Positions 14,927 through 49,140 of a stretch of DNA of 64,000 bases are shown here, piece by piece. This stretch comes from Sphingomonas sp. AOB5 (GTDB lineage: Bacteria > Pseudomonadota > Alphaproteobacteria > Sphingomonadales > Sphingomonadaceae). Position 1 is the stretch's first letter; each line of letters starts with the position of its first letter. The stretch is from NCBI RefSeq assembly GCF_029433115.1, contig NZ_JARNTV010000015.1, positions 1-64,000 of the forward strand, in the 5' to 3' direction. Position numbers and translations under genes: made by a program. The notes beneath the pieces were generated by a model. That model was not told the origin of the DNA. It did not search any database and saw only the letters and a program-made list of their open reading frames with translations.

Positions 14927-14981
14927 AGTCTGATCCGCGCACGCGGATGCGGTGCCGGCCCGCTAACTGAAAGCGACTCTA
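14924..14981. terminator. Convergent terminator-like structure
   Basis: TAGAGTC (14924-14930) and GACTCTA (14975-14981) form outer arms, with an inner hairpin ATCCGCG/CGCGGAT (14933-14948). The stop codons of both convergent genes lie within the outer arms. There is no T run, so termination is only suggested. Confidence 0.4.
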
Positions 14982-15722
14982 GACGGGGTCCTGTCCCGAG
15001 ATCGGCATGTCGAGCGACAGGCCGGCATGTTCGTAGCCGCGGCGGAAATCGGCCATGTGCCGGTGCATCCATAACCGTGCCGCGGGCAGATCGCGCGCAC
15101 GCAGCCCCTCGACGATCTCGCGATGCGCGTCGAGCAGGCGCTGCGGCGAACGGTCGCGCGTCTTCGGATGGGTGAACAGACGGTCGAGCGAGGGGTAGAA
15201 GAGCTGCGACACCGGCTCGCGCGACAGCAGCAGCACGCGGTTGCGAGTGGCGTGCGCGATCAGCGCGTGGAAGGCGACGTCGAGCGCGATGATCGATTCG
15301 CCGCGTTCCAGCGCCAGCGCCATCGCGGCGATATTCGCATCCAGATCGGCGATCAGCGCGTCGTCCACCTGCTCGGCGAGCAGGTCCATCGCCAGCAGTT
15401 CGAGCTGCATCGCCACTTCCCAGATCTCGCGGAACGACACCTGCTGCATCAGCAATGCGCGCGAGGATTGCGAGGCGAGCGCGTCGTGCTTGGGGCGGGT
15501 CACATGCAGGCGGCGGCCGGCGTCGCGCTTGACCAGACCGCTCTGTTCGAGCGCGCGCATTCCTTCGCGCACCGTGTGCCTTGTGACGCCGAACTTCTCC
15601 GCCAGCTCCGTCTCGGTCGGCAAAGGCTGCCCCGGCGCCAGCGCGCCGCTCATGATCGCATCCTCCAGCGCCTGCTGCACCGCCTGATAGGCGCGGGCGA
15701 TCTGAAGCTTCCCGAACTGCAT
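14979..15722 (-). CDS. GntR-family regulator, FadR/FCD subfamily
   Basis: 247 aa from the ATG at 15722, chosen because AAAGGA lies 7 bases upstream; a TTG 21 bases further up would extend it but overlaps the putative operator. The N-terminal winged helix contains PLPTETELAEKFGVTRHTVREG. The C-terminal FCD domain has the metal-ligand pattern Asp/His in LDVAFHALIAHAT, DAHREI and WMHRHM. FCD regulators usually bind a carboxylate or acyl-CoA and leave DNA when the ligand is present. It is divergent from the SDR-thiolase pair, which it very likely controls along with itself through the TTGTCCAACAA site. Confidence 0.92.
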   Translation of the reverse strand: MQFGKLQIARAYQAVQQALEDAIMSGALAPGQPLPTETELAEKFGVTRHTVREGMRALEQSGLVKRDAGRRLHVTRPKHDALASQSSRALLMQQVSFREIWEVAMQLELLAMDLLAEQVDDALIADLDANIAAMALALERGESIIALDVAFHALIAHATRNRVLLLSREPVSQLFYPSLDRLFTHPKTRDRSPQRLLDAHREIVEGLRARDLPAARLWMHRHMADFRRGYEHAGLSLDMPISGQDPV

Positions 15723-15732
15723 CAAAAATCCT

Positions 15733-15743
15733 TTGTCCAACAA
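15733..15743. promoter_or_regulatory. Predicted FadR-class operator
   Basis: TTGTCCAACAA fits the TNGTNNNACNA half-site pair reported for FadR-subfamily GntR proteins. It lies 11 bases upstream of the GntR start codon, next to its ribosome-binding site, and 108 bases upstream of the divergent SDR gene, so binding would repress at least the regulator itself. Confidence 0.6.
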
Positions 15744-15850
15744 TCCAACAATTGATAGATGCCGCGCACCCCGATGCCAATGGGGAATGCCTGCCGGAAA
15801 AGGTCAAGGCACCGGCACCGGGCTGGGTCGCGAGCGAAGGGATTTTGGCG

Positions 15851-16738
15851 ATGGGTATCGAACTGGGAACGCGCGTGGCGATCGTGACCGGGGCCGGCGG
15901 CGGACTGGGTGCGGCGCATGCGGTCGCGCTGGCGGCGCGGGGGGCGAAGGTCGTCGTCGCCGATCTGAACGGCGATGCCGCGGCCGAGGTCTGTGCCCGG
16001 ATCGAGGCGGCAGGCGGCGAAGCGATGGCGTGCGGCGTCAGCGTCGCCGATTTCGCGGGCGTGCAGGCGATGTGCGAGGCTGCGCTCAGCCGCTGGGGCC
16101 GGATCGATATCCTGGTCAACAATGCCGGCATCCTGCGCGACCGCACCTTCGCCAAGATGGAGCTCGACGATTTCCGGCTGGTGCTCGAAGTGCATCTGAT
16201 GGGATCGGTGAACTGCACCAAGGCGGTGTGGGATACGATGCGCGCGCAGAATTACGGGCGGATCATATTCACCACCTCGTCCTCCGGCCTGTACGGCAAT
16301 TTCGGGCAGGCGAATTACTCGGCGGCCAAGATGGGGCTGGTCGGCCTGATGCAGACGCTGGCGATCGAGGGCGAGCGCTATGGCATCCGCGTCAATTGCC
16401 TGGCGCCGAGCGCGGCGACGGGGATGACCAACGAACTCTATTCGCCCGAGATGCTGGCGGGCCTCGGTCCGGATCTGGTCAGCCCGGTGATCGTCGCGCT
16501 GTCGAGCGAGGATGCGCCGAGCCGGGCGATCCTGCTGGCCGGGGCGGGCAGCTTCGAACAGGCGCATGTCACCATGACCCAAGGCCTGTATCTGGGCGAA
16601 GGCGAAGGCGTTGCCGACACGCTGCTGGCACGGCTGGGCGAGGTTGCCGCCCGCGAAGGCGAAGCGATCCCCGCGCGCGGCGAGGAACAGTATCGCTACG
16701 AGATGAGCATGCGCGCGGCGCATATGGTGCGCGCATGA
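15851..16738 (+). CDS. Short-chain dehydrogenase/reductase, 3-hydroxyacyl-CoA dehydrogenase-like
   Basis: 295 aa from the ATG at 15851 (GAAGGG upstream). Classical SDR features are TGAGGGLG (14-20), NNAG (90-93), the catalytic Ser within TTSSSG (141-146), Y156 and K160. The NAGILRDRTFAKM segment is characteristic of the 3-hydroxyacyl-CoA dehydrogenase domain of MFE-2-type enzymes and FabG relatives. It should oxidise a 3-hydroxyacyl-CoA to the 3-ketoacyl-CoA with NAD(P). The next gene is a thiolase whose ATG overlaps this stop codon (ATGA), giving the last two steps of a beta-oxidation round. Confidence 0.9.
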   Translation: MGIELGTRVAIVTGAGGGLGAAHAVALAARGAKVVVADLNGDAAAEVCARIEAAGGEAMACGVSVADFAGVQAMCEAALSRWGRIDILVNNAGILRDRTFAKMELDDFRLVLEVHLMGSVNCTKAVWDTMRAQNYGRIIFTTSSSGLYGNFGQANYSAAKMGLVGLMQTLAIEGERYGIRVNCLAPSAATGMTNELYSPEMLAGLGPDLVSPVIVALSSEDAPSRAILLAGAGSFEQAHVTMTQGLYLGEGEGVADTLLARLGEVAAREGEAIPARGEEQYRYEMSMRAAHMVRA

Positions 16739-17913
16739 CCCCGGTCTATATCGTCGCGGCGCAGCGGACCGCGATCGGCACCTTTGGCGGGTCGCTCAAG
16801 GACGAGACCCCGGCGGTGCTGGCCACCACCGTCACCCGTGCCGCGCTGGAAGCCGGTGGCGTCGATCCGGCGACGGTCGGCCATGTCGTGTTCGGACAGG
16901 TGATCCCGACCGCGCCGCGCGACGCCTATCTGGCGCGGGTCGCGGGGATCGAGGCGGGGATTCCGCAGGAAGTGCCTGCGCTGACCCTCAACCGGCTGTG
17001 CGGTTCGGGCCTGCAGGCGGTGGTGTCCGCCGCGCAGATGCTGATGCTGGGCGATGCCGACATTGCCGTGGCGGGTGGCAGCGAAGTGATGAGCCGTGCC
17101 CCCTATTTCGCGCCGATGACGCGCTGGGGCCAGAAGATGGGCGATGCGTTGCTGGTCGATGGGCTGAACGGCGCGCTGACCGATCCGTTCGGCGCCGGGC
17201 TGATGGGCGTCACCGCCGAGAATGTCGCCGAGCGGCACGGCGTGGATCGCGCGCGGCAGGATGAATATGCAGCCGAAAGCCATCGCCGCGCGGCCCGGGC
17301 GATCGCGGAAGGGCGGTTCGACGGGCAGATCGTGCCGGTCGAGGTGAAGGCCGGCCGCGCCACGCGGATGTTCGACACCGACGAGCATGTCCGCCCGGAC
17401 GCCGATGCGACCGAGCTGGGCAAGCTGCGGACCATCTTCCGCAAGGACGGCACCGTCACCGCGGGCAATGCATCGGGGATCAACGACGGTGCGGCGGCCT
17501 TGGTGCTGGCAACGGCGGATGCGGTCGAGCGTCATGGGCTGACGCCGATGGCGAAGATCGTGGCGTACGGCCATGCCGGTGTCGATCCCGCCTATATGGG
17601 CATGGGTCCGGTCCCGGCGACGCAGGCGGCGCTGGCGCGGGCGGGGCTTTCGATCGCGGACATGGACGTGATCGAATCGAACGAGGCGTTCGCGGCACAG
17701 GCCTGCGCCGTTTCCGATGCGCTGGGCTTCGATCCCGAGCGGGTCAATCCCAATGGCAGCGGCATCTCGCTCGGCCATCCGGTTGGCGCGACCGGCGCGA
17801 TCATCGCCACCAAGCTGGTGCACGAACTCGCGCGGACCGGTGGACGCTATGGGCTGGCGACGATGTGCATCGGCGGCGGACAGGGGATCGCGCTGATCGT
17901 CGAGCGGGTGTGA
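16735..17913 (+). CDS. Acetyl-CoA acetyltransferase / 3-ketoacyl-CoA thiolase
   Basis: 392 aa. The three catalytic residues fall at the canonical numbers: C89 in NRLCGSGLQ, H348 in GHPVGATG and C378 in MCIGGGQG, with NEAFAAQ (316-322) also intact. It cleaves a 3-ketoacyl-CoA with CoA to acetyl-CoA plus a shortened acyl-CoA. It is translationally coupled to the SDR, and both probably respond to the GntR regulator. Only 6 bases separate its stop from the stop of the convergent acyl-CoA ligase. The chain length or aryl preference is unknown. Confidence 0.95.
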   Translation: MTPVYIVAAQRTAIGTFGGSLKDETPAVLATTVTRAALEAGGVDPATVGHVVFGQVIPTAPRDAYLARVAGIEAGIPQEVPALTLNRLCGSGLQAVVSAAQMLMLGDADIAVAGGSEVMSRAPYFAPMTRWGQKMGDALLVDGLNGALTDPFGAGLMGVTAENVAERHGVDRARQDEYAAESHRRAARAIAEGRFDGQIVPVEVKAGRATRMFDTDEHVRPDADATELGKLRTIFRKDGTVTAGNASGINDGAAALVLATADAVERHGLTPMAKIVAYGHAGVDPAYMGMGPVPATQAALARAGLSIADMDVIESNEAFAAQACAVSDALGFDPERVNPNGSGISLGHPVGATGAIIATKLVHELARTGGRYGLATMCIGGGQGIALIVERV

Positions 17914-17919
17914 CCCGGC

Positions 17920-19491
17920 TCAGCCGCCGCTGAACGAAGCGCGCAGGCTGAGCTTGTCGATCTTGCCGGTCGAAGCGAGCGGCATGCTGGGCACGCGCAC
18001 GACCGAATCCGGGATCCACCACGACGCCACCCGGCCGCGCAGCGCGCCGAGCAGGTCTTGGTCCGAAATGTCCTGATCCTCGCGCAGCTCGACCAGCAGC
18101 ATCGGACGCTCGCCCCATTTATCGTCGCTGCGGCCGATCACCGCGGCGAGCGAGACCTGCGGCAGCGCGCAGACCACCGCCTCGATCTCGGCGGGGTTGA
18201 TCCATTCGCCGCCCGACTTGATCAGGTCCTTGGCCCGGCCGGTGATCATCAGGTTTCCGCGCCGGTCGATCTTCGCCAGATCGCCGGTATCGAACCAGCC
18301 CTCGGCATCGGCGCAGGGCGTTTCCTGCCCGAAATAGCGCTCGATCACCGCCGCGCCGCGCACATGCAGCCGGCCTTCCCGATCGCGCTGGTCGGCCAGC
18401 GGATCGCCCTTCTCGTCGGCCAGCATCAGATCGACGCCGAGCGCGGGACGGCCCGAGATGGCGGCGGGGCGATCCGCATCGGTCATCACGCCGAAGGTGC
18501 CGACCGGCGACAATTCGGTCATGCCCCAGCTGGTCTGCACCGCCACGCCGAGCTGGTCCTCGATCCGCGCCATCAGCGCAGGCGGCATCGGCGCGCCGCC
18601 GACGGTGATCCGCTGCAGCGAAGGCAGCCGCGTGCCGGTCGTTTCCAGATGCTCGCACAGGCCGAGCCACACCGTCGGCACGCCGACCGCGATGGTCACA
18701 TTCTCGCTCTCGATCAGCCGGGCGAGGCTGGCGCCATCGGTATGGCGGCCGGGCAGGACCAGCTTCGCGCCGGCACCCGGCACCGCGAAGGGCAGGCCCC
18801 AGGCATTGGCGTGGAACATCGGCACCACCGGCAACACGCTGTCGGTGCTACGCACGCCCAGCACGTCCGCCTGCATCAGCCGCAGCGTGTGGAGGAAGCT
18901 GGAGCGATGGGTATAGGTCACGCCCTTGGGCGCGCCGGTCGAGCCCGAGGTGAAGCACAGGCCGCTCGGTGCGGTCTCGTCGAAGCCGCCCCAAGCGATG
19001 TCGAGCGATGCCGCCTCGATAAGCGGCTCGAGCGTCGCGCCGATCCCGGGCGAGGCTTCACCGTCGATCACCAGCACGCGTTCGAGATGCGGCGCTTCCG
19101 CGACGATCTTTGCCGCCAGCGGCTGAAGGTCGGCGCTGACGATCAGGATCGTCGCGCCCGACTGGCCGAGCATCCAGGCGAGCTGGGTCGCGGTGAGGCG
19201 CGGGTTGAGCGTGTGGCACACAGCCCCCATGCCCATGATCGCGTACCATACCTCGACATGCGCCTGGCTGTTCCATGCGAGCGTCGCCACGCGATTGCCC
19301 CGCACCACGCCATAGTCGCGCAGCAGCGAGGAGACCTTCAGCGCGCGCTGGCGCAGTGTCGCATAATCGACCCGGCGATTGATGCCGCCCTCGCCCGCAG
19401 TGACCACCTCGGTATCGGGATGCCATTTGGCGGCATGATCGAGGATCCGGTCCAGCGTCAGCGGAAAGGATTGGATGCTCCCGTCGATCAC
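17920..19491 (-). CDS. Acyl-CoA ligase (AMP-binding, FadD-like)
   Basis: 523 aa from a GTG at 19491 whose bases overlap the esterase stop codon (GTGA). It has the P-loop CFTSGSTGAPKG (179-190), WGMTELSP, EGWFDTGDLA, TGRAKDLIKSGGEWINP and the C-terminal STGKIDK Lys region. It forms an acyl-CoA from the free acid, most simply the acid released by the esterase encoded directly upstream. A longer reading frame is open upstream but overlaps the esterase gene, so the GTG is preferred. It is similar in build to the ligase at 4507-6126. Confidence 0.9.
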   Translation of the reverse strand: MIDGSIQSFPLTLDRILDHAAKWHPDTEVVTAGEGGINRRVDYATLRQRALKVSSLLRDYGVVRGNRVATLAWNSQAHVEVWYAIMGMGAVCHTLNPRLTATQLAWMLGQSGATILIVSADLQPLAAKIVAEAPHLERVLVIDGEASPGIGATLEPLIEAASLDIAWGGFDETAPSGLCFTSGSTGAPKGVTYTHRSSFLHTLRLMQADVLGVRSTDSVLPVVPMFHANAWGLPFAVPGAGAKLVLPGRHTDGASLARLIESENVTIAVGVPTVWLGLCEHLETTGTRLPSLQRITVGGAPMPPALMARIEDQLGVAVQTSWGMTELSPVGTFGVMTDADRPAAISGRPALGVDLMLADEKGDPLADQRDREGRLHVRGAAVIERYFGQETPCADAEGWFDTGDLAKIDRRGNLMITGRAKDLIKSGGEWINPAEIEAVVCALPQVSLAAVIGRSDDKWGERPMLLVELREDQDISDQDLLGALRGRVASWWIPDSVVRVPSMPLASTGKIDKLSLRASFSGG

Positions 19492-21146
19492 CGGCAGGCT
19501 TCCACGGCAGGCGGCAGTGCAGGCGAGGCGACGCCGACATTCCAGTTCCACGGGATGTTGCCCATTGCGCGGCGGCGGCACACGACCTGGTCGTGCAGCC
19601 GGTACTGGCCGGGCATCAGGTCCGTCGCGACGCGCGGCGTACCGGCAAAGATCATATAATCGGCTCGCTTGTTGTGGGACGGCCAGGCCGGCTGGCCCGG
19701 CGCCTTCGGCACGCCGGAGCGGGCGAAGGACGTCCAGTAATCGACCATCGCATCGGAAAGCGTTCGCTCCGCCGCGGTGTCGGGGAATTTCGGCCACAGT
19801 GCGGTGACCTGTCCGATCGTGCCGAACATGTAGGGCACTTCGGAGGCGTGGAAGGCATGGATGCCGGCCTGATCGGCGGCAGGCGTGCCATGGTCGAAAA
19901 AGTAGAGATACGCGGGTTGCCCGATCCGCGCCTGTTCGCGCACCAGCCGCTGCGAGGTCCATCCGAAGAAGCCGTCGCGCGCCGCGCCGAAGATGCCGCC
20001 ATCGATGTCGCTGGCCGGATAGAGGCGGAGGAAAGCGTCGGCCAGCTCGCCATAATTGGCGCGGATCGCGGCTTCGTATTTCGCGGGATCGAACTGCGAG
20101 ACGTCGGGCAGCATCGGCAGGATCGATTTCATCGTGCGGATCTCGCCCGCGGTGAAACCGGTCATCAGCGGTACGCGCGCCTGCTCGCCGCGCTCGAACG
20201 TCTCGATCAGCTGGCGGGGCAGGATCTTGCCGTCGACGATGGCGGTCGAGGCGAACCGGCCCTGCGCCAGCGCGGTGAGGCGCGGCCCGTCGATCGCGCG
20301 CAGATCGGCGAGGGTCCTCGCGCCGGCCATGGCGGCGAAGCCCGATCCGGTGCTTTCCGCAGAGGGCAGGCCATGGCTCGCCTGCTTCAGCTCCGGGATG
20401 TTCATCAGCGATGCGCTCTGGACGATTGCCCTGGCGAACAGGCCGCGGGCATCGGGTGCGGCGAGCAGGTGCAGGATCGCGAGGCCGCCCGCGGATTCGC
20501 CCGCGATGGTCACCTTCGCCTTGCTGCCGCCGAACGCGGCGATGTTGCGGTTGACCCAGCGCAGCGCAGCGATCTGATCGAGCAGGCCATAATTGCCCGA
20601 CACGCCCCGCGGCGATTCCGCGCTCAGTTCGGGATGGGCGAAATAGCCGAAGATTCCGAGGCGATAGTTGATCGAGACGACCACCACGCCGCGCTTCGCC
20701 AGCGCCGCGCCGTCGAACATCGCCTGTTGCGAGGAGCCGCGGACCAGATTGCCGCCGTGTATCCACACGAATACCGGCGCATTCTTCGCCTTGGCCGGTG
20801 CCCAGATGTTGAGCGACAGGCAATCCTCGCTCATCGCCGGATAGGTTTCGGCATAAATGCTGCCGGCGGGTGCCGCAGGCTGCTGGCAGGCGGCGCCGAA
20901 CGCGCTCGCGTCGCGCACGCCGGACCATGCGGGAAGGGCATCGGGTGCCTTCCAGCGCCGCTCGCCGACCGGGGGCAGCGCGTAGGGGATGCCGCGGAAG
21001 ATGCGCTCGCCATTGGCTTCGACGCCCTGCACTGCGCCTGCAGGCGCGCGAACGACCGGACCGGCCTCTGCAGGCGCGACCGCGCACAGGGCAGCGGCGC
21101 ATAGGGTCGCGGCGTTCAGGGCCGCGATGCGATGGGCAATCGCCAT
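19488..21146 (-). CDS. Type-B carboxylesterase, secreted
   Basis: 552 aa with an N-terminal Sec signal peptide ending near PAEA (residues 25-28). The alpha/beta hydrolase catalytic parts are the oxyanion loop HGG (130-132), the nucleophile S218 in AGESAGG, a candidate acid in FTAGEIRT and the His in HAFHASEVPYMFG; SEDCLSLNIWAP is the type-B signature. It hydrolyses a carboxylic ester, probably in the periplasm. The ATG at 21146 follows GGGGAGAAG. It is the third gene of the GntR operon and is coupled to the ligase, which fits an ester to acid to acyl-CoA sequence. Confidence 0.92.
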   Translation of the reverse strand: MAIAHRIAALNAATLCAAALCAVAPAEAGPVVRAPAGAVQGVEANGERIFRGIPYALPPVGERRWKAPDALPAWSGVRDASAFGAACQQPAAPAGSIYAETYPAMSEDCLSLNIWAPAKAKNAPVFVWIHGGNLVRGSSQQAMFDGAALAKRGVVVVSINYRLGIFGYFAHPELSAESPRGVSGNYGLLDQIAALRWVNRNIAAFGGSKAKVTIAGESAGGLAILHLLAAPDARGLFARAIVQSASLMNIPELKQASHGLPSAESTGSGFAAMAGARTLADLRAIDGPRLTALAQGRFASTAIVDGKILPRQLIETFERGEQARVPLMTGFTAGEIRTMKSILPMLPDVSQFDPAKYEAAIRANYGELADAFLRLYPASDIDGGIFGAARDGFFGWTSQRLVREQARIGQPAYLYFFDHGTPAADQAGIHAFHASEVPYMFGTIGQVTALWPKFPDTAAERTLSDAMVDYWTSFARSGVPKAPGQPAWPSHNKRADYMIFAGTPRVATDLMPGQYRLHDQVVCRRRAMGNIPWNWNVGVASPALPPAVEACR

Positions 21147-21186
21147 GACTTCTCCCCGGATTGGATGGCTGCCGCGCGTGCGGCGG

Positions 21187-22221
21187 TCAGCCGATGACCT
21201 TGTTCAGCCGCTGCCAGAGCTGCTGGTCGAACTCCTTGTCGCCCGCCGCGGCGCCGGTGCGCACCACCACCAGCTTCTTGCTGGGCACGATGTAGAGGCG
21301 GCGATCGAACGCGCCGAGCGCGGCGATGGTATCGGTGGGCGCGGTGGCGATCAGCGGGCCGTCGCGGCGTCCACCCAGCGCGCGGATCGTATAGGCGCCG
21401 CTGTTCAGCCACCACAGCCGGGCATAGGCCGGGTTGGTGGCCGAGGGCGTGAACAGCGCCTTCAAGCTGGCTTCGGAAACCACGCGCTTGCCGTCGTTCG
21501 AGACGCCGCCGTGCAGCACCATCAGGCCGAACAGCGCGGTGTCGCGCGGGGTGGTGACCAGCCCGGTATCATTGCCGACCGAAGCGAGCGCGGCGGGCCG
21601 CTTGCGCCATGCGGTGTTGTTCATGCCGGCGGGCACGGTCAGCCAGTCGCGGGTGATGACGTCGAGCGGCTGTTTCGCGGCGGCGGCCACGATGCGCTTG
21701 CTCACGGCATAGACCGGGGTGTTGTAGAAGAAGGCGGTGCCCGCGGGCGCGGTGTAGCCGAACTTCTCGTCCAGCCCCGAGCTCATCGTCAGGATATCGA
21801 GGACGCGGATCTTTGCTTCCTGCTCGGGCGTCGCCTTGGACCAGCCGGCGCCGATATAGTCGGACACCGGCTTTTCGACGTCGATCAGCCCCTTGTCGAT
21901 CGCGATGGCGACCAGCACCGCGACGAAGCTCTTCTGCTGCGACGCGACGTCCTCCAGGAGCGCGCCTTCGCCCGAGCGGCCATAGACGAACATCGCATAT
22001 TGCGGATTGCCCTCGGGCGCGGGCCAGTATTTCTCGACCAGGATCTTGCCGTCCTGGATCACCAGCAGCCCGGTGCTGTTCTGGTTGCGCGCATAGTCGA
22101 GCAGCGCGCTGACATCGGAGGCCGGGGTCGCAACTGCAGGCCGCTGCGGCGGAACCGCGGCGACGCCGGGCGCGCAGGCGATCAGCGAAGTGCACAGAAG
22201 CAGGGAAGCTCGCATCATCAT
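21187..22221 (-). CDS. Serine hydrolase of the beta-lactamase / class C family, probable lipoprotein
   Basis: 344 aa. The N terminus carries a lipobox-like LIAC (13-16), so it is probably lipid-anchored in the periplasm. The S-x-x-K nucleophile is SQQK (94-97), and a Tyr motif (FFYNTPVY) follows where family members have Y-x-N. Such proteins are often esterases or amidases rather than antibiotic-resistance enzymes. There are three consecutive ATG codons; the first (22221) overlaps the GntR stop (ATGA) and has CCGGAG upstream. Together with the type-B esterase it gives this operon two exported serine hydrolases. Confidence 0.87.
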   Translation of the reverse strand: MMMRASLLLCTSLIACAPGVAAVPPQRPAVATPASDVSALLDYARNQNSTGLLVIQDGKILVEKYWPAPEGNPQYAMFVYGRSGEGALLEDVASQQKSFVAVLVAIAIDKGLIDVEKPVSDYIGAGWSKATPEQEAKIRVLDILTMSSGLDEKFGYTAPAGTAFFYNTPVYAVSKRIVAAAAKQPLDVITRDWLTVPAGMNNTAWRKRPAALASVGNDTGLVTTPRDTALFGLMVLHGGVSNDGKRVVSEASLKALFTPSATNPAYARLWWLNSGAYTIRALGGRRDGPLIATAPTDTIAALGAFDRRLYIVPSKKLVVVRTGAAAGDKEFDQQLWQRLNKVIG

Positions 22222-23003
22222 CTCCGGTTGCCGGCTGCGCGGCGCTTGATCGGCGGAACGGGGCGCGGCAGCGGGGCGTCGGCCCGGACGCGGGTGCCGC
22301 GCGTCAGCATGATCCGGGCGACCTCGCCCTGCATGTAATAGAGGATGTCGCGCGCGGCCTGGCTTGCCTTGTCGGCATCGCGGGTGACCAGCGCAGCGCG
22401 AACCTGGCGCCAATATTCATAGGGGCCGGGCGAGTCGGCGGTGAGCGCCAGCGCGACATAGGAGAAGTGGAAGCGCGTCTTGCGGCGGACCGACTCGATC
22501 ATCTTCTGCGCATCGGTGCTGGCGCTTTCGGCCATCTCGCTGAAGATCGCTTCGCTGACCTCGATGATCTGTTCGGCCGGGGCGCCGCTGGCGGCGTCGC
22601 TCAGCAGGCGGTCGATATTGACCAGCATGTGCCGGATCGCGGCGTCGGACCCGCGCAGGCAGGCGAAGCGCGCGGCAAGGCCATAGAGCGCGGCGCGGAC
22701 TTCGTAGAGATCGAACACTTCCTCGACGGTGGTGGTCGAGACGCGCGCGCCGCGATTTTCCTCCAGCTCGATCAGGCCGTCATCGGCGAGCGTGCGTAGC
22801 GCACGGCGGACGATCGAGCGGCCGACGCCGAACTCGCTGCACAGCTTCGCCTCGCGCAGCCATTCGTCGGGCAGGAGTTCGCTGCGCTGGATCCGCAGCC
22901 GCAGCACCTGGGCGAGATCGTCCGCGGTGGACACCGGATGGCCTTCGGCGTGATCGTCCTGCGATGCGGATTCCGGGCTGTCTTTCAAAGGTTTACCTCT
23001 CAC
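22218..23003 (-). CDS. GntR-family regulator, FadR/FCD subfamily
   Basis: Up to 261 aa. The winged helix holds LCSEFGVGRSIVRRALRTLADDGLIE, followed by an all-helical FCD-type ligand domain. The GTG at 23003 has no good ribosome-binding site, and a second GTG about 24 codons in (before STADDL) is a possible start. The gene leads a minus-strand operon (serine hydrolase, esterase, ligase) and is divergent from a TBDR. A perfect FadR-class operator lies about 100 bases upstream, so it likely represses both arms until an acid or acyl-CoA from the pathway appears. Confidence 0.9.
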   Translation of the reverse strand: MRGKPLKDSPESASQDDHAEGHPVSTADDLAQVLRLRIQRSELLPDEWLREAKLCSEFGVGRSIVRRALRTLADDGLIELEENRGARVSTTTVEEVFDLYEVRAALYGLAARFACLRGSDAAIRHMLVNIDRLLSDAASGAPAEQIIEVSEAIFSEMAESASTDAQKMIESVRRKTRFHFSYVALALTADSPGPYEYWRQVRAALVTRDADKASQAARDILYYMQGEVARIMLTRGTRVRADAPLPRPVPPIKRRAAGNRR

Positions 23004-23101
23004 GGATTGCTGCGTTCGTTTGAACTTTTACCAATCTCGCCCCTCGATTCCTATTGCGGCGGCCCCGCGAGAGCAAGCGATTTGTGCAACGATCAAATCA
23101 A

Positions 23102-23116
23102 GATTGTCGTACAATC
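23102..23116. promoter_or_regulatory. Predicted FadR-class operator in the TBDR/GntR divergent promoter
   Basis: GATTGTCGTACAATC is a perfect palindrome with 6-base arms; its core TTGTCGTACAA (23104-23114) fits TNGTNNNACNA. It sits between the GntR start (23003) and the TBDR start (23192), so one site could control both transcripts. Confidence 0.7.
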
Positions 23117-23191
23117 CATTTGACATTGGTGCGCGATAATTTGATGAAGCGGCCGTGGCGCAGCAAAAAATGCGCGCCAGTGGGAGGATGC

Positions 23192-25576
23192 ATGCGAGAC
23201 TTTTTTGCCACGACCGCAACCCTTGCGCTCGTCATCGCGACGCCGGCTCTGGCGCAGACCGCGAACCCCGAATCGCAGGACAGCGCGGCGGCGACCCCGG
23301 CCGAGGATCAGGATCCCGAGACCAGTGCCAAAGCGCAGAGCGGCGATATCGTCGTCACCGCGCGCCGCCGCGAGGAAAGCATCCGCGACGTGCCGGGCAC
23401 CATCTCCGCAGTGACCGCCGACCAGCTCGAATCCAAGGGCACCGTCGCGGGCAGCGGCGACCTGCTCAACACCGTTCCCGGCGTCCGCTTCAACGACGTC
23501 GCCAGCGAGAATCTCGCCGAGGTTTCGATCCGCGGATCGGGCACGGCGCGCGCCACCGGCGCCGATTCGGGCGTGGGCCTGTTCGTCAACGGCGCCTATG
23601 CCGGCAGCTCGACGCTGGGCGGCCGCAACTTCAAGACCATCGACTATTTCGATATCGAGCGGGTCGAAGTGCTCGAAGGGCCGCAGGGCGCGCTGTACGG
23701 CCGCAACTCCGAATTCGGCGTGGTCAACATCGTGCTGGCCAAGCCGCGCTTCAACGACTCCGGCTATATCCGCAACACCTTCACCTTCGGGCTGAACCAG
23801 GATCGCCTCGCGGTGGTCGTCAACAAGACGCTGAGCGACACTGTCGCGATCCGCATCGGCGCCGAGGGCTATGCCCAGTCGGACGGCTTCTACTTCAATC
23901 CGCGCACCGAGAAATATTACGACAGCACCAAGGGGTGGAATGGGCGCGCCCAGCTCCGCTACCGCTCCGGCCCGCTGGACGTCACCTTCCTGGTGGATTC
24001 GCAGGACCTGAACCTGCCGAGCTTCGTCAACAGCCTGGTGATCCCCGGCGGCGGCGTGAACGCCGCGGTGCCGCAGGGCTTCCAGCAGTCGCGCTTCACC
24101 CTGCCGCATGAAGGCGAGGACGGCATGCAGCAGAAGACGCTGCGCGGCATGCTGCTCGCCAGCTATGATTTCGGCTGGGCCACGCTGGAATCGACTACGA
24201 TGGCGACGCGCTGGCGCTCCAGCCAGCAATATGCCTCGGCGATCGACTATCCCACGCTGGCGGCGCTGCGCCAGTCGGGCCAGCTTGGCCTCTATCCGTT
24301 CAGCCAGGTGCGTACCAATGTGGTCGACCGCACCTTGTATCAGGACCTGCATCTGACCGGGAAGACCGGCGCGCTGACCTGGATCGTCGGCGTCGAAGGC
24401 CTGTACCAGAATGACGATTACCGGCTGGCGGTGGCGTCCTCGCCCTGCGCCTTTACCGGCATCAATCAGGGCATCTGCACCGGTACGCCGACCGCGCCGG
24501 TCTGCCTGAAGCCGCTGCCGACCTCGGCCAACTGCCCGGCGACCTTCCCGCTGGTGTTTGGCAGCGACGCCAACACCAAGCAATATATCTACTCCGCGGC
24601 AGCCTATGCCTCGCTGCAATACACGATCGGCAATTTCTCGGTCGTCGGCGAAGGGCGCATCACCTATGACCACAAGGAGGCGACCCTGTTCGCCTATGCG
24701 CTCTACACCACCACCTATACCCGCGCGCCGACCACCTTCTCGTTCAGCGCGGAGCAGCCGGTGTTCACCGTCACCGCCAGCTACAAGGTGCCGGGCCTGA
24801 ACAATGCGTTGTTCTATGCCAAGGTCGGCACCGGCTATCGCGCGGGCGGCGTGAACAATGGCGCGTTCCGGGCGGCGGCGCCCAATCCGTTCGTGTTTAC
24901 CTACGACAACGAAAAGACGCTGGGCTGGGAAGCGGGCATCAAGGCAAACATCACGCCCAATCTGTTCTTCCGCACCGCCGCCTATCTGTCGCGCACGACC
25001 GATGCGATCACCAGCATCAACGATGGCTGCACGCTCACCAATGCGTGCGGCGTGGCGGGGCAGAATTTCAACATCAATGGCGGCACGATCGAGGCACGCG
25101 GCGTTTCCGCCGCGCTCGACGGACGCTTCCGGCTCGGCGGCGGCCTGTTCTCGTTCGGCCTGAACGCCGCGACCCAGCGCGCCCGCTTCGAAAGCGTGCC
25201 CGCGGGTCTGACCGGCCTGCCGGTGGTCGGCAGCTCGGTCGCGCAGATCCCCGACTGGACCATGTCCGCGGTGGTCGATTACCGCCGCCCGATCAACGAG
25301 CGCGTGACCGGCTTCTTCAACCTGAGCTATTCGGGCCAGCGCGGCGGATCGCAGGACACGACCACGCTTGCCACCCCGGCGATCCCGATGACCGATTTTG
25401 ACATCTTCAACGGGCAGATCGGTTTCAGCGTCGGCAAGACGCGGGTGGCGCTGAACGTGCGCAACCTGACCGATCGTCAGGTCCAGGTGCTCAAGTTCAC
25501 CCAGGCGGGCTATCCGCTGTCGGTGCGCTACAACAAGCCGCGCACCTTCGCGCTGACCGTGGGCTATCGCTGGTAA
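23192..25576 (+). CDS. TonB-dependent outer-membrane receptor
   Basis: 794 aa from the ATG at 23192, which has GGGAGG close upstream and yields a clean signal peptide (cleavage near PALAQ, residues 18-22). Upstream in-frame ATGs would spoil it. The plug begins GDIVVTARRREESIRDVPG and carries IERVEVLEGPQGALYGRN; the C terminus ends VGYRW, an aromatic terminus suited to barrel insertion. Some predicted outer loops contain paired Cys. It is the outer-membrane gate of the GntR-controlled unit and is followed 28 bases later by an MFS carrier, so the ligand probably crosses both membranes or is processed between them. Confidence 0.94.
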   Translation: MRDFFATTATLALVIATPALAQTANPESQDSAAATPAEDQDPETSAKAQSGDIVVTARRREESIRDVPGTISAVTADQLESKGTVAGSGDLLNTVPGVRFNDVASENLAEVSIRGSGTARATGADSGVGLFVNGAYAGSSTLGGRNFKTIDYFDIERVEVLEGPQGALYGRNSEFGVVNIVLAKPRFNDSGYIRNTFTFGLNQDRLAVVVNKTLSDTVAIRIGAEGYAQSDGFYFNPRTEKYYDSTKGWNGRAQLRYRSGPLDVTFLVDSQDLNLPSFVNSLVIPGGGVNAAVPQGFQQSRFTLPHEGEDGMQQKTLRGMLLASYDFGWATLESTTMATRWRSSQQYASAIDYPTLAALRQSGQLGLYPFSQVRTNVVDRTLYQDLHLTGKTGALTWIVGVEGLYQNDDYRLAVASSPCAFTGINQGICTGTPTAPVCLKPLPTSANCPATFPLVFGSDANTKQYIYSAAAYASLQYTIGNFSVVGEGRITYDHKEATLFAYALYTTTYTRAPTTFSFSAEQPVFTVTASYKVPGLNNALFYAKVGTGYRAGGVNNGAFRAAAPNPFVFTYDNEKTLGWEAGIKANITPNLFFRTAAYLSRTTDAITSINDGCTLTNACGVAGQNFNINGGTIEARGVSAALDGRFRLGGGLFSFGLNAATQRARFESVPAGLTGLPVVGSSVAQIPDWTMSAVVDYRRPINERVTGFFNLSYSGQRGGSQDTTTLATPAIPMTDFDIFNGQIGFSVGKTRVALNVRNLTDRQVQVLKFTQAGYPLSVRYNKPRTFALTVGYRW

Positions 25577-25604
25577 CAACAGGCAGTTCGGGAGAGTGCA
25601 CGAC

Positions 25605-26906
25605 GTGGCAAGTCAGCAGGCGGAAAGCAGCAAGCCGAGTACCAAGGTTGCGGTGATGGCGTCGGCGGGCGCGGCGGTCGAATGGTATGATTTCTTCATC
25701 TACGGCACCGCCGCGGCGCTGGTCTTCCCCAAGCTGTTCTTCCCGCCCGAACTGCCCCTGTTCGTCGCGCAGATCGCGGCGTTCAGTACCTTTGCCGTGG
25801 GCTTCATCGCCCGGCCGATCGGGGGCCTGCTGTTCGGTCATCTCGGCGATCTGCACGGGCGCAAGAATGCGCTGGTGCTGGCGATGATGCTGATGGGCGC
25901 GGCGACGACCATCATCGGGCTGTTGCCGAGCTATGCCGCCGCCGGCGTGCTCGCGCCGCTGGCGCTGGTGGCGATGCGCTTCATCCAGGGCCTTGCCGTC
26001 GGCGGGCAATGGGGCGGCGCGGCACTGCTCGCGATCGAAAGCGCACCGGCCAACAAGCAGGGCTATTATGGCAGCTTCGTGCAGGTCGGCGTGCCGCTTG
26101 GCGTCGTGCTGGCCAACACTGCCTTCCTCATTTCCAGCGCGCTGGTATCCCCCGATCAGTTCCTCGTCTGGGGCTGGCGGATCGGGTTCGTCATCAGCAT
26201 CGCGCTGATCTTCATCGGCCTCTATATCCATTGGCGGGTCGAGGAGCCGCAGCACGAGGCGGCGCCGGTAGCCAAGGTGGAAACGGCCAAGCCCTCCTCG
26301 CCGCTGTTCGCGGTGCTTCGCGGGCACTGGCGCGAAGTGCTGCTCGCGGGCGGCGCGTTCATCGCCAACAATGTCTGCTTCTACATCGCGATCACCTATG
26401 CGGTGGCGTACGGCACCACCACCATGGGGCTGTCGCGCGAGACGATGCTGGCCGCGGTCATGATCGGCAGCGTGGCGATGATCCCGGCGCTGATCCTGTG
26501 CGGTGCTCTGTCGGACCGGTTCGGGCGGCGCGGCATCTTCATGCTGGGTGCGATCCTCTCGGGCGCATGGGCGTTCGCAGTGTTCCCGCTGATCGATTCG
26601 CAATCGCCGGTCGCGGTGACGGTGGCAATCGCGGTGGCGCTGATCTTCGTCGCCTTCATGTACGGGCCGCAGGCGGCCTTGTTCGCCGAGCTGTTCCCGC
26701 GCGAAGTCCGCTATTCGGGCGCGTCGCTCGGCTATCAGATCGGCACGCTGGCCGGTGGCGGCTTCGCGCCGATCATCGCGACGGCCCTGTTCGCCCATTA
26801 CCAGACGACCCTGTCGATCTCGGTCTATCTCGCCGCGACCTGCGTGGTATCCTTGGTCTGCATCATCCTGCTGGGACGGATGAACCGGGGAGCCGTGCAT
26901 GCCTGA
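25605..26906 (+). CDS. MFS transporter, metabolite:H+ symporter (MHS) type
   Basis: 433 aa from the GTG at 25605, favoured over a GTG at 25596 because GGGAGAG then lies at normal spacing. The opening AVEWYDFFIYGTAAALVF and the loop RPIGGLLFGHLGDLHGRK are hallmarks of the MHS branch (ShiA, KgtP, ProP relatives), and 12 membrane helices are evident. It should move an organic acid into the cytoplasm with protons. It lies between the TBDR and the M28-fold protein, whose ATG falls 8 bases inside this gene's end, so they are translated together. Confidence 0.92.
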   Translation: MASQQAESSKPSTKVAVMASAGAAVEWYDFFIYGTAAALVFPKLFFPPELPLFVAQIAAFSTFAVGFIARPIGGLLFGHLGDLHGRKNALVLAMMLMGAATTIIGLLPSYAAAGVLAPLALVAMRFIQGLAVGGQWGGAALLAIESAPANKQGYYGSFVQVGVPLGVVLANTAFLISSALVSPDQFLVWGWRIGFVISIALIFIGLYIHWRVEEPQHEAAPVAKVETAKPSSPLFAVLRGHWREVLLAGGAFIANNVCFYIAITYAVAYGTTTMGLSRETMLAAVMIGSVAMIPALILCGALSDRFGRRGIFMLGAILSGAWAFAVFPLIDSQSPVAVTVAIAVALIFVAFMYGPQAALFAELFPREVRYSGASLGYQIGTLAGGGFAPIIATALFAHYQTTLSISVYLAATCVVSLVCIILLGRMNRGAVHA

Positions 26907-28179
26907 CAGGCGGAGTTTTCTGGCGGGCAGCGTGGTGCTGCCTGCCCTGACTGCAGCGACCCTCGATGGCGGCGGCCGCGATGCGATGGTGGCGACCGAC
27001 CTCGCCAACTATATCGGCTTCGGCAGCAAGCAGGCAGGCGGCGCGGGCGACAACGCCGGTGGCGAGTGGCTCGCCGCGGAACTCGAAAAGCTCGGCTTCG
27101 CGATCCAGCGCCAGAGCTTCCAGACGCCTTATTTCGAGCCGACCCGCGCGGAGCTGATCGCGGGCGAGGCAAAGGCCGCGGTCTGGCCGCAACCCATCGT
27201 CATCCAGACCGGGGCGGACGGCATGAGCGGTCCGCTGGTCCGGGTCGATGGCGCCGGAAAGGCTGATGGGGAACTGGCCGGCGCCATCGCACTGGTCGAT
27301 CTGCCTTCGGGCCGCTGGTCGACCGCGCTGGCCAAGCCGATCCGCGCACCGATCACCGCGGCGTTCGCGGGCGGGGCGAAGGCAGTGGTCGCCATCACCA
27401 ATGGCCCGACCGGCAAGATCATCGCGCTCAACGCCGATGGCCGCCAGCCGATGTTTGCGGGGCCGGTCGCGCTGATCGCGCCTGCCGACGCGCAGCCTTT
27501 CCTCGATGCCGCGCGTAGCCGTGCCTCGGCCACGCTGCACATTACAGGCAAGGGTGGGCACCGGCCCGCGTTCAACTTCATCGGTCGCATCGACCGGGGG
27601 AAGAAGCGCTGGCTGGCGGTCTCGACGCCGCGTTCGGGCTGGTATGGCTGCGCGGGCGAGCGCGGACCCGGTGTCGCGGCCTGGCTGTGGCTGGCGCGCT
27701 GGGCGAGCAAGGCGGTGCAGGATCACGACCTCGCCTTTGTGTGCAACACCGGGCACGAATATGAGTATCTCGGTGCTTCCGAAGCGCTGAAGGAGATCGC
27801 GCCCAAGCCCGCCGATACGCGCTTCTGGCTGCATCTCGGCGCCAATGTTGCCGCGCGCGACTGGCACGATATCAGCGGGTCGCCGCTGCCCAGCCCCGAC
27901 ACGCAGCGCTATCTGTCGGCCAGCCCGTCGCTGTTGCCGGTCGCGCGCGAGGCCTTTGCCGGGCTTGCCGGATATGAGGCCCCCTATTCGACCGACACGC
28001 TGACCGCGGGCGAACTGACCGAGATCGTCGCGGCGGGGTACAAGCCGGCCGCGGGCGTGTTCGGCATCCACCGCTATCACCATGTCGCCGAAGACGATGC
28101 GCGGTGCGTGCATGCACCCAATGTCATCGCCGCTTCCGCCGCCTTCCAGAGCTTCGTCGAGCGCGTGCTCGCCGGCTGA
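26899..28179 (+). CDS. Tat-exported M28-peptidase-fold protein with degenerate metal site
   Basis: 426 aa. The start MPDRRSFLAGSVVLPALTAA is a twin-arginine signal. A PA-like insert (about residues 100-200) and the order of secondary structure resemble M28 aminopeptidases with a PA domain. The usual first ligands (H-x-D and a following D) are absent: the corresponding stretch is VSTPRSGWYGCAGERGPG, and the E-E position reads NTGHEYEYLG. A late HRYHHVAEDD resembles the last metal His motif. It may be a non-peptidase, for example a binding protein or altered hydrolase, or my alignment may be off. It overlaps the MFS gene and ends the TBDR operon. Confidence 0.65.
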   Translation: MPDRRSFLAGSVVLPALTAATLDGGGRDAMVATDLANYIGFGSKQAGGAGDNAGGEWLAAELEKLGFAIQRQSFQTPYFEPTRAELIAGEAKAAVWPQPIVIQTGADGMSGPLVRVDGAGKADGELAGAIALVDLPSGRWSTALAKPIRAPITAAFAGGAKAVVAITNGPTGKIIALNADGRQPMFAGPVALIAPADAQPFLDAARSRASATLHITGKGGHRPAFNFIGRIDRGKKRWLAVSTPRSGWYGCAGERGPGVAAWLWLARWASKAVQDHDLAFVCNTGHEYEYLGASEALKEIAPKPADTRFWLHLGANVAARDWHDISGSPLPSPDTQRYLSASPSLLPVAREAFAGLAGYEAPYSTDTLTAGELTEIVAAGYKPAAGVFGIHRYHHVAEDDARCVHAPNVIAASAAFQSFVERVLAG

Positions 28180-38661: not shown

Positions 38662-40194
38662 CTATCCGGCGAGGAGCGGCTTCAGGGCAGTCAATGCCGG
38701 ACGGGACTTGAGGTGAAGGCCGAGGATTGCCGCCGCCAACCGCTCGGATCGTGCGTGGGGCATTTTCGCCGCGGCGGTCTGGCGGTGGAACTTGGCGAGG
38801 ATCTCCGCTTCGCTGCTGATCTGCTTCATCGGGTGGCGCGAGGCGATGGGGACGTGCGCGGACTCGGTGCGCCCGTCGGCCAGCTCGACGGTAACGCGGG
38901 AGCCGCGCATGCCTGCCGGAAGCGGCGCCAGCTTCGACTTTGCCGCGAGCATCGCGATCTGCGGGCTGCGCACCATCGCGTCGTCATAATGATCCAGCCA
39001 CATCGATCCGCGCAGCAGTGCGTTCACACTAGCGAACTGGTAGCTGAAATTGGCGTCGGCATGCGCGTCGCGGCCGATCACGAACGGCTTGGCGACGAAG
39101 CCGGTCAGCGATCCGGCGGGATATTCGATGGTGATCGATTTCGCGGCCAGCACATCGGCCTCGCTCAGCCTTCCGGGTTCGCGCAGCGCCAGCCCCGCCT
39201 CGATCCCGCAATGCGTCGCCATGCAGGCGGGATAGGGCTTGAAATAGGCTTCGCCATGGAAGCGTTTCCCCAGGTCCGCGCTGAGGATTTCGGGCCGTGC
39301 GCAGCCGGCGGTATATTGGGCATAGAAGCCATAGGGGGCGAGCAGCGCATCGCCGATGCCAGTCCAGCCGCGCTTCGCCAGTTCGGCGGAAAGGATCGCG
39401 GCGCGCGCGACCAACCCCTGCGGCAGTTTGAAGTCGGTCGCGCCGTCCCAGATATTCTGGACCGTGCCCGCAATCTGATCGACGCAGATGCCGAATGCGT
39501 CGCGCATCTGGATCGGCGACAGCTTGAGCAGACGTCCGGCGATGGCAGTGGCGGCGATGGCGCTGAACACCGGCGCGCCGTCCCAGCCCTGTTCGAAGTC
39601 CAGCCCCGCCGCGACCAGCATCCGCGCGGCGATATCGTCGCCGATGGTGAGGGCGGCCAGCAGTTCGGGACCGGTCGCGCCTTCGCGCTCGGCAAGGGCG
39701 AGGGCGGTCATCACCGTGGTGGGCGAATGGTGCGAGGGGACCGAGGCGCGATCGATCACCACGGTCATCACTTCGAAGTCATAGGCGCGCGCGGAGACGG
39801 CGTTGAGCAGGGCGGCCTGTGCGGCGGGCAGGCGGAAGGGATAACCGATCACCGTCGCTTCGCCCTTGCCGCCGCTGTCGCGCAGCACATCGGCCAGAGC
39901 GGATGCGCGCGGGTGCACCGTGCCGCCGAATGCGCAGCCAATGGTGTCGAGCAGGCGGTGGCGGGTGGCGAGCAGCGCGGCGGGGTCGATCGCTTCGAAC
40001 GGGCAAGTTGCGGCATGGGTCGCCAGCAGATCGGTGATGCCCGGCTTCTCGCCGCTGCGCCGGTTGACGAAGCTGCCGCCGGACTTAAGCAGGCTGCCGT
40101 CCTGCGGCGGCGCGTCCTGCGCCTTTGCGCCCGCTCCTATGATCGCGGCGGGTGCGATCATCGCCCCCGCGCCCAGCACTTGCCTGCGTCGCAT
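38662..40194 (-). CDS. MmgE/PrpD-family protein with Tat signal
   Basis: 510 aa from the ATG at 40194 (GGGAGAG upstream). The start MRRRQVLGAGAMIAPAAIIG is a twin-arginine signal, ending near GAKAQ. The mature part is a full MmgE/PrpD domain pair: RHRLLDTIGCAFGG, SHHSPTTVMTALALAE, YKPYPA-like YFKPYPACMATH, and a C-terminal KSITIEYPAG region. Known members are cytoplasmic 2-methylcitrate dehydratase, cis-aconitate decarboxylase and iminodisuccinate epimerase, so export is unusual. It is divergent from a TBDR and 122 bases upstream of the kdgD-like gene. The reaction is unknown; a dehydratase or decarboxylase is most likely. Confidence 0.87.
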   Translation of the reverse strand: MRRRQVLGAGAMIAPAAIIGAGAKAQDAPPQDGSLLKSGGSFVNRRSGEKPGITDLLATHAATCPFEAIDPAALLATRHRLLDTIGCAFGGTVHPRASALADVLRDSGGKGEATVIGYPFRLPAAQAALLNAVSARAYDFEVMTVVIDRASVPSHHSPTTVMTALALAEREGATGPELLAALTIGDDIAARMLVAAGLDFEQGWDGAPVFSAIAATAIAGRLLKLSPIQMRDAFGICVDQIAGTVQNIWDGATDFKLPQGLVARAAILSAELAKRGWTGIGDALLAPYGFYAQYTAGCARPEILSADLGKRFHGEAYFKPYPACMATHCGIEAGLALREPGRLSEADVLAAKSITIEYPAGSLTGFVAKPFVIGRDAHADANFSYQFASVNALLRGSMWLDHYDDAMVRSPQIAMLAAKSKLAPLPAGMRGSRVTVELADGRTESAHVPIASRHPMKQISSEAEILAKFHRQTAAAKMPHARSERLAAAILGLHLKSRPALTALKPLLAG

Positions 40195-40239
40195 ACCACT
40201 CTCCCGATGATGCAAGCGTGCGCCGGAAACGGGCCATTG

Positions 40240-40254
40240 CTCTTGTCTCAAGAG
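40240..40254. promoter_or_regulatory. Perfect palindrome in the PrpD/TBDR divergent promoter
   Basis: CTCTTG-TCT-CAAGAG lies 46 bases upstream of the PrpD start and 111 bases upstream of the TBDR start. It is a candidate operator for an unidentified regulator. Confidence 0.4.
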
Positions 40255-44923: not shown

Positions 44924-45043
44924 CCAGTGTCAACCGGGTGCGGATTGCCGCGGTTTCGGGACGGCGAATGTTCGTCGTCAGGCAAGTCTGAAGGCGCGGC
45001 CGCGTTCAAAAAGGCGGGGCAACACAAGATACCGAAAGAGACG

Positions 45044-48580: not shown

Positions 48581-49138
48581 ATGACCACCGACACGTCCGT
48601 CCTCGGCGAGGACTATCAGCCGATCTCGCTGATCGGGCTCGAATTCGCCTTCCGCATCCGCATCTATTTCGCCGAGCGCCGCAAGTTCGAGCCGACCACG
48701 CCGATGGGTGGCCGCGTCTATGTGCCGCCGCTTTCGGGCGATATTTCGGGGCCGCGGCTTCAGGGCCGGGTGATCCCGCACAGCGGCGGCGACTGGGCAC
48801 GCGGGCGCAGCGACAATGCGGCCGAGCTGAACGCGCATTACATGCTGGAAGCATCGGACGGCACGCCGATCTACATCAACAATCGCGGCTTCCTGTACGG
48901 ACGCGACGATGCCGGTTTGCCGGTGAAGGTCGCCAACAAGACGCAGGAAAACCTGGCCGAAGGCGCCGAGACCAGCTGGAAGATTGCGCCGGACACCTAT
49001 TTCTTCTGCATCCCGGCATTCGATGCCCCGGTCGGCCCGCATGACTGGCTGACCCGCCACGTCTTTATCGGCCGCGGCCGCCGGGTGCCCAGCCCGGATC
49101 ATACCTGCTTCGACTATTATATCGTCGATAACGCCTGA
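48581..49138 (+). CDS. DUF3237 family protein, cytoplasmic paralogue
   Basis: 185 aa, with AGGAGAG before the ATG. The beta-barrel core is recognised by GGRVYVPPLSGDISGPRLQG, VIPHSGGDWARGRSDN, NAHYMLEASDGTPIYINNRG and a C-terminal TRHVFIGRGRR. There is no export signal, unlike the paralogue at 62372-62926. The function of the family is not established; members often occur in aromatic and polyketide-like catabolic clusters. Its place in the CCD operon suggests a role on a pathway intermediate. Confidence 0.88.
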   Translation: MTTDTSVLGEDYQPISLIGLEFAFRIRIYFAERRKFEPTTPMGGRVYVPPLSGDISGPRLQGRVIPHSGGDWARGRSDNAAELNAHYMLEASDGTPIYINNRGFLYGRDDAGLPVKVANKTQENLAEGAETSWKIAPDTYFFCIPAFDAPVGPHDWLTRHVFIGRGRRVPSPDHTCFDYYIVDNA

Positions 49139-49140
49139 CC

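Follow-up and report, generated by a model that had tools for sequence, protein, structure and literature searches.

A probably horizontally shared catabolic module under one predicted GntR/FCD regulator in Sphingomonas sp. AOB5

The DNA analysed here (the window) is a stretch of 64,000 nt from Sphingomonas sp. AOB5 (contig NZ_JARNTV010000015.1, positions 1-64,000). It carries a locus in which two divergent gene arms, a minus arm at 17920-23003 and a plus arm at 23192-28179, lie on either side of a short predicted operator, ATTGTCGTACAAT, at 23103-23115. The minus arm encodes a GntR/FCD regulator (22218-23003), a beta-lactamase-fold serine hydrolase of family PF00144 (21187-22221), a type-B carboxylesterase (19488-21146) and an acyl-CoA ligase (17920-19491; PF00501 and PF13193). 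The plus arm encodes a TonB-dependent receptor (TBDR; 23192-25576) with a PF07715 plug and a signal-like N-terminus, an MFS carrier of the metabolite/H+ symporter (MHS) type (25596-26906; TIGR00883, 403.5 bits against a cut-off of 443.45) and an M28-fold protein (26899-28179). The GntR and hydrolase genes overlap in ATGA, a 40-base gap separates the hydrolase and carboxylesterase genes, the GTG start of the ligase overlaps the stop of the esterase (GTGA), and the MHS and M28-fold genes overlap by 8 bases. The initial annotation had described a plus arm and a minus arm, the genes of the latter joined by ATGA and GTGA overlaps or a short gap, and all junctions are borne out; the span that it assigned to the unit, 22218-28179, omits the carboxylesterase and ligase genes (17920-21146). 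Gene content, the conservation and specificity of the operator, its geometry relative to TTGACA and the folds discussed below were computed directly.

The main predicted operator consists of 6-base arms, GATTGT and ACAATC, around a central CGT. It had been called a perfect palindrome, which is true of the arms; the central CGT is non-symmetric, the usual form in the FadR subfamily. TTGTCGTACAA fits the operator form with TKGT and ACMA boxes 3 nt apart (motif from PMC4494728). A second, weaker operator-like site, TTTGTGCAACGAT, is found at 23081-23093, 22 bases from the main operator, and a TTTGT half-site at that distance is invariant in all 10 distinct Sphingomonas-type sequences. On the plus-arm side, TTGACA (23120-23125, plus strand), the probable -35 element of that arm, begins 4 bases past the operator. 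Even when one mismatch is tolerated, the window contains a single instance of TTGTCGTACAA (shuffled sequences: mean 0.09, with at least one occurrence in 9 of 100). This count alone does not exclude chance, and so the evidence rests on relatives. Once the upstream regions of L043-L046 and L048, which repeat those of L037-L041, had been removed, ATTGTYGTACAAT was found exactly upstream of the GntR gene in 24 of 25 distinct orthologues (window included), the remaining one having GTTGTCGTACAAA; the pattern TTGTYGTACAA is present in 25/25. The 13-base block and the adjacent TTGAC do not vary at all among the 10 Sphingomonas-type regions that were aligned. In its own 4.28 Mb genome the exact operator occurs once, together with a single one-mismatch site, ATTGTCGTAGAAT, on contig C2. 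A relaxed form, WTTGTYGTACAAW, occurs 43 times in 23 whole genomes, with 41 occurrences beside GntR or module genes; the reversed pattern, used as a control in the same genomes, occurs twice. Given the 25 distinct orthologous regions and the 23 whole genomes, a chance origin of the site appears untenable. A FadR-class operator shared by both arms, as had been proposed, is thus well predicted by its TKGT/ACMA form and its conservation among orthologues.

The strongest test of the predicted regulon is provided by eight loci, mostly from Caulobacterales, in which the TBDR gene is not divergent from the GntR gene. In all eight of these split loci an operator copy is found at the TBDR or MHS unit (that of L056 being on another contig, L110), and a second PF00144 hydrolase gene has a further copy 89-194 bases ahead of it. 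The opposite side of this second gap is occupied by glutathione S-transferase (GST) and/or MFS genes or by a ligase gene. In L049 and L051, divergent TBDR and MHS genes have one operator site in common. TTGAC[AT] starts 1-5 bases downstream of 34 of 44 distinct operator copies (drawn from 30 sequences, with L109 left out), against a background of 118 in 120,000 random 14-mers (0.1%). Within the GST/MFS-hydrolase gaps this box faces the GST/MFS side in L049-L056 and the hydrolase in L058. A single GntR regulon is therefore predicted to span both arms, and sequence predicts its members almost to the base. At all 34 boxed copies the operator is upstream of TTGAC[AT], not over or after it, which leaves room for a regulator that activates its targets rather than repressing them; FadR-type proteins can also activate from a position upstream of the -35 element. 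However, the box departs little from the -35 consensus and the spacing varies from 1 to 5 bases, such that helical phase is not kept. Repression is favoured on these grounds, and activation is unlikely.

Orthologues of the GntR regulator are rare. At an E-value of 1e-25 they are present in at least 8 of 295 genomes of the genus and at least 2 of 397 genomes of the family (own genome included in both); because only part of the first-look candidates were scored, these figures and the 5/385 given below for the M28-fold protein are lower bounds. A collection of named genomes contains 21 GntR loci, including one short partial match. Loci are found in Sphingomonas, Novosphingobium, Sphingopyxis, Parasphingorhabdus, Brevundimonas, Caulobacter, Kordiimonas and other assemblies. 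The gammaproteobacterium Peristeroidobacter soli carries a GntR orthologue with 80% identity, which suggests that the module has moved between the Alpha- and Gammaproteobacteria. A plasmid search with the GntR protein returned only relatives of 28% identity and no orthologue.

Partner genes were tallied in 22 orthologous loci at 45% identity and 150 bits, with the window not counted, L063 (a 209-base, 55% match) left out, and L001, L003, L004 and L034 recognized as repeats of other loci. Genes in pieces were counted (MHS and M28-fold genes of L053, hydrolase gene of L054). The beta-lactamase-fold hydrolase gene is present in 21/22 loci and the M28-fold gene in 16/22 (20/22 after an extended search), followed by genes for the TBDR (17/22), the ligase (16/22) and the MHS carrier (15/22, or 17/22 after an extended search). 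The carboxylesterase gene is the least constant of the arm genes: it is found in eight loci, in six of them at the same arm position, while those of L051 and L058 (52-54% identity) sit outside the arm; a ninth (56%) is on L110. A GST-like gene is present in nine loci, an MFS gene of one type in eight, a short-chain dehydrogenase/reductase (SDR) gene in eight and a thiolase gene in four. These tallies place the M28-fold protein and the beta-lactamase-fold hydrolase at the predicted core of the module and mark the carboxylesterase as an accessory. In Brevundimonas naejangsanensis (L053, 11830-13597) the module appears to have decayed: its MHS gene is cut short, its M28-fold gene is broken in two, and no ligase gene was found nearby.

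The regulator has an N-terminal GntR winged helix (PF00392, 51.5 bits, cut-off 27) and a modest match to a C-terminal FCD domain (PF07729, 36.4 bits, cut-off 24.3). Its predicted model is weak (pLDDT 67.2) and the fold matches are only indicative. The best matches are FCD domains such as those of PdhR, DhdR and VanR, with the C-terminal domain of PdhR first (Z 18.3, 2.5 A over 147 residues); FadR chains (Z 12.7, 11.3 A over 201 residues) rank below several FCD proteins. No FadR-specific sequence model among the Pfam (up to 0.001) and NCBIfam models matched the regulator. The FadR-subfamily (FCD) label stands. An Asp and three His positions in the FCD domain are presumably metal ligands, and the three histidines are absent from this protein and from all 17 aligned orthologues (several rows of this alignment, A1, are cut at the N-terminus). 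As a control, a second GntR/FCD regulator encoded in the window (14979-15743, minus strand) does show the D, H, H, H pattern. The acid or its acyl-CoA had been put forward as the inducer; because the FCD domain is without its three metal histidines, and with no FadR-type model matched, this is not backed.

The beta-lactamase-fold hydrolase is predicted to be exported. It has the motif S94-Q-Q-K97 and Y166, and S94, K97 and Y166 are invariant in 12 aligned rows (in this alignment, A3, the row of the frame-broken L054 hydrolase ends out of frame). The suggestion that it is a lipoprotein fits the LIAC lipobox of the window protein but not the group as a whole, as only eight of the 12 rows, read by eye, have a lipobox-like Cys. 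Its kin include a class C beta-lactamase-related hydrolase and 6-aminohexanoate-dimer hydrolase. True beta-lactam resistance was considered and dropped, without support. The second PF00144 hydrolase encoded beside operator copies has nearest solved relatives that are named esterases. The carboxylesterase (PF00135, 330 bits) has a signal-like N-terminus and a GxSxG motif in the form GESAG at 216; its nearest solved structure is the fumonisin B1 esterase 8s6d.

The M28-fold protein, which has a twin-arginine-like start (DRRSFL), matched no Pfam or NCBIfam family (up to 0.001), although PA-domain matches fall just under the cut-off in two of its relatives. It was identified through its AF2 model (pLDDT 76.8), which matches the whole chain of the Bacillus aminopeptidase BSAP (6hc6; Z 31.6, 3.3 A over 359 residues) and the Aneurinibacillus enzyme 2ek8 (Z 28.4). 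The earlier description of the protein as M28-fold is right by predicted fold, though without a match to any Pfam M28 model. In a profile alignment to a solved M28 enzyme, HxD corresponds to P244-R245-S246, the bridging Asp to E254 and the EE pair to H286-E287; by eye, the later Asp is probably H312 and the last His H394/395. Judged from this alignment rather than from coordinates, HxD and the first Glu of EE are replaced, and the set of two-zinc ligands with a catalytic EE pair is not there. The substituted residues are invariant in 14 orthologues, and all but R245 are kept down to 30% identity in six relatives. From this we infer that the protein belongs to a separate M28-fold family with a rebuilt metal site, serving either catalysis or binding. 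A class-level search found relatives in at least 5 of 385 genomes. A GntR-type gene adjoins the M28-fold gene in five of seven places besides that of the window; of the other two, one is at a contig end and one has no GntR hit in 3.8 kb. A relative with 51% identity is encoded on a plasmid of Novosphingobium sp. EMRT-2 (L077, 9214-15284), where its neighbours are an annotated M14 carboxypeptidase, a membrane dipeptidase, a TBDR and, instead of GntR, an Lrp/AsnC regulator.

These proteins bear on the nature of the substrate, which the initial annotation had taken to be an ester. The carboxylesterase and the esterase-like kin of the hydrolases agree with this, but the carboxylesterase is encoded at only 8 of the 22 loci and the core hydrolases could cut amides. 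The substrate might instead be peptide- or amide-like, such as an N-acylated or cyclic peptide, with the carboxylesterase accessory. The hydrolases encoded at 20-21 of the 22 loci share fold or kinship with aminopeptidases, beta-lactamase-related hydrolases and 6-aminohexanoate-dimer hydrolases, and the Novosphingobium plasmid places an M28-fold relative beside peptide-cleaving functions by annotation. Against an amide are the carboxylesterase and the second, esterase-related PF00144 hydrolase beside the operator, the extra alpha/beta hydrolases next to an operator copy in one genome, and the loss of the M28 catalytic Glu and HxD. On balance we hold an amide substrate to be a possibility of some standing, somewhat doubtful.

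The plug of the TBDR best matches siderophore-receptor models, far below their cut-offs, and in two distant relatives, L075 and L076, a TBDR gene and a gene resembling iron-type ABC systems (its start read by eye) are both found no more than 20 kb from a GntR-M28 gene pair. The hydrolases could free a metal or vitamin from a ligand of the receptor, in a system for scavenging siderophores or cofactors. The MHS carrier, the acyl-CoA ligase and the SDR point instead to carbon use, and make scavenging of this kind highly improbable. A locus for detoxification of a xenobiotic or antibiotic, rather than for catabolism, would suit the GST-like genes and the beta-lactamase fold; import by a TBDR and an MHS carrier followed by CoA ligation is, however, a layout for feeding and not for export, and we regard detoxification as very unlikely. 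The nearest solved relative of the ligase is 6ihk, and its score against the NCBIfam model for 3-(methylthio)propionyl-CoA ligase is 518 (cut-off 822).

The ligase gene converges on a neighbouring operon on the plus strand that encodes an SDR of the (3R)-hydroxyacyl-CoA dehydrogenase/17beta-HSD4 type (15752-16738, counted from the frame's first start codon; best solved relatives 2et6 and 1gz6) and a BktB-like thiolase (16735-17913; PRK09051, 632.5 bits, cut-off 565), with an ATGA overlap between them. In L033 and L044 an SDR relative lies 3' of the ligase gene on the same strand. Because the SDR trails the ligase in those loci and the SDR-thiolase pair adjoins it in the window, the route probably continues outside the unit, and the claim that the unit is self-contained is not supported. 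The unit genes tested include no acyl-CoA dehydrogenase or hydratase, as would be fitting for a 3-hydroxy acid; alternatively, housekeeping enzymes could supply these steps. The idea of a 3-hydroxy acid is weakened by L043, L045 and L048, where the SDR-thiolase pair has a FadB-like hydratase/dehydrogenase gene beside it. The gene for the second GntR/FCD regulator is divergent from the SDR-thiolase pair of the window. Near its start, at 15732, is the sequence ATTGTTGGACAAA, which is also found by this gene in L043 and L045, is not listed in L048, and may be the operator of that regulator.

A related set of genes is found elsewhere in the same genome (G000:C55; L072, 8178-15314 of G000:C55:16500-36400). 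There a beta-lactamase-fold gene (29% identity) is divergent from a GntR-led set encoding GntR (26%), M28-fold (44%), TBDR (35%) and carboxylesterase (40%) proteins. The same gene order is annotated on a plasmid of Sphingopyxis macrogoltabida 203N (L078), where the M28-fold gene is given as a hypothetical protein. These sister modules resemble the window unit in this divergent arrangement, but differ in protein sequence (22-47% identity where compared) and in their operator-like site: both contain, within a 30-base shared block, the perfect palindrome TATTATCGATAATA. This fits TTATMKATAA, the BioR-type consensus cited in PMC4494728.

Taken together, the operators, their copies at the split loci, the TTGAC[AT] geometry, the gene tallies and the sister module support the reading of this locus as a horizontally shared catabolic module under one GntR/FCD regulator, to which we assign a probability of roughly 0.72. 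Apart from the upstream position of the operator discussed above, several observations weigh against it. Ten of the 44 operator copies are without a TTGAC box (nine before GntR genes without a divergent TBDR gene, plus the unlinked copy of L108), and a generic promoter scan found no promoter at the operator region, so that the -35 assignment rests on conservation alone. Two of the 43 relaxed sites (L108 and L109) are unlinked to the module. Within about 10 kb on either side, L057 has the GntR gene and operator and none of the partner genes, L060-L062 have GntR, hydrolase and M28-fold genes but no TBDR, MHS or ligase genes, and L059 has a TBDR gene but neither MHS nor ligase genes; the gene sets of L059-L062 indicate that the uptake and CoA steps are not universal.

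The proposed model for the catabolic module is as follows. A dimer of the GntR protein would bind ATTGTYGTACAAT, mostly 1-5 bases upstream of the -35 element of the target promoter, with the weaker operator copy facing the arm of the regulator itself. Most likely it acts as a repressor and would leave the DNA when a product of the compound binds. Upon derepression, the TBDR would admit a compound too large to pass through porins to the periplasm, where the beta-lactamase-fold hydrolase and the M28-fold protein would cut ester and/or amide bonds, joined in some lineages by the carboxylesterase. The MHS carrier would import the freed carboxylic acid, the ligase would make its CoA thioester, and the 3-hydroxyacyl-CoA dehydrogenase and thiolase would carry the acid on. 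The direction of control, the localisation of the proteins, the order of the steps and the acid product are what we infer; uptake, hydrolysis outside the cytoplasm and CoA activation, as foreseen in the initial annotation, are what the gene content most naturally suggests. A compound able to release a single defined promoter from control would be the inducer, which provides a ready assay for naming the substrate. It would also give a function to an M28-fold family that has no curated model and an active site unlike those of the aligned M28 enzymes.

A more specific reading is that the module belongs to an undescribed family of GntR/M28-fold uptake modules which consume large natural products containing both ester and amide bonds, e.g. 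(3R)-hydroxyacyl lipodepsipeptides. The M28-fold protein would then represent a new hydrolase class with a rebuilt active site, in which H286 stands in for the catalytic Glu and E254, E287 and H394/395 probably hold a single metal. Ester bonds would be opened by the serine hydrolases, and the 3-hydroxy acid would pass from the ligase to the (3R)-hydroxyacyl-CoA dehydrogenase and the thiolase. As a joint proposition, this is speculative and distinctly unlikely. A microcystin mlr-type locus was also considered and dropped, no supporting text being found in the literature searched.

The two unlinked operator copies have surroundings of their own. That of L108 (G629, about position 9919) is an exact copy before an alpha/beta hydrolase-thiolase-alpha/beta hydrolase set, and a thiolase of the same Pfam type adjoins the M28-fold gene in L114. 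That of L109 (G1102) is near a glycoside hydrolase gene and a gene read from its sequence as TetR-like. Elsewhere in the window, at 38662-40251, 44927-46510 and 49135-50634, two MmgE/PrpD genes and one carotenoid-oxygenase-family (RPE65) gene stand among MFS, TBDR and regulator genes, making the window rich in catabolic genes.

In the literature searched, judged from titles and abstracts, no paper describing the module, its gene combination or its operator sequence was found; individual parts can be compared with known systems. PMC4494728 describes FadR-subfamily regulators with divergon operators, in which TKGT and ACMA boxes stand 3 nt apart between divergent genes. The window GntR resembles these in combining a winged helix with an FCD domain and in the position of its operator, but is without the FCD metal histidines, has an operator that is carried to split-off units, mostly just before TTGACA, and is predicted to control a TBDR and exported hydrolases. 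FumD of Sphingopyxis macrogoltabida MTA144 is described in PMC10746191 as a periplasmic secreted carboxylesterase, and the fum route uses an aminotransferase. The window carboxylesterase is like FumD in type and in its nearest solved relative; no aminotransferase is encoded among the seven unit genes, and fumonisin degradation, with only esterase kinship in its favour, was dropped. The M28-fold protein has the whole-chain fold of M28 aminopeptidases with a PA domain and, unlike them, P244-R245-S246 in place of HxD together with E254 and H286-E287. The ligase is like DmdB-type acyl-CoA ligases, as 6ihk is what we take to be DmdB, but falls below the cut-off for their family. Scavenging modules linked to a TBDR are known; what is new here is a cleanly predictable regulon and, at its core, an M28-fold family without a curated model.

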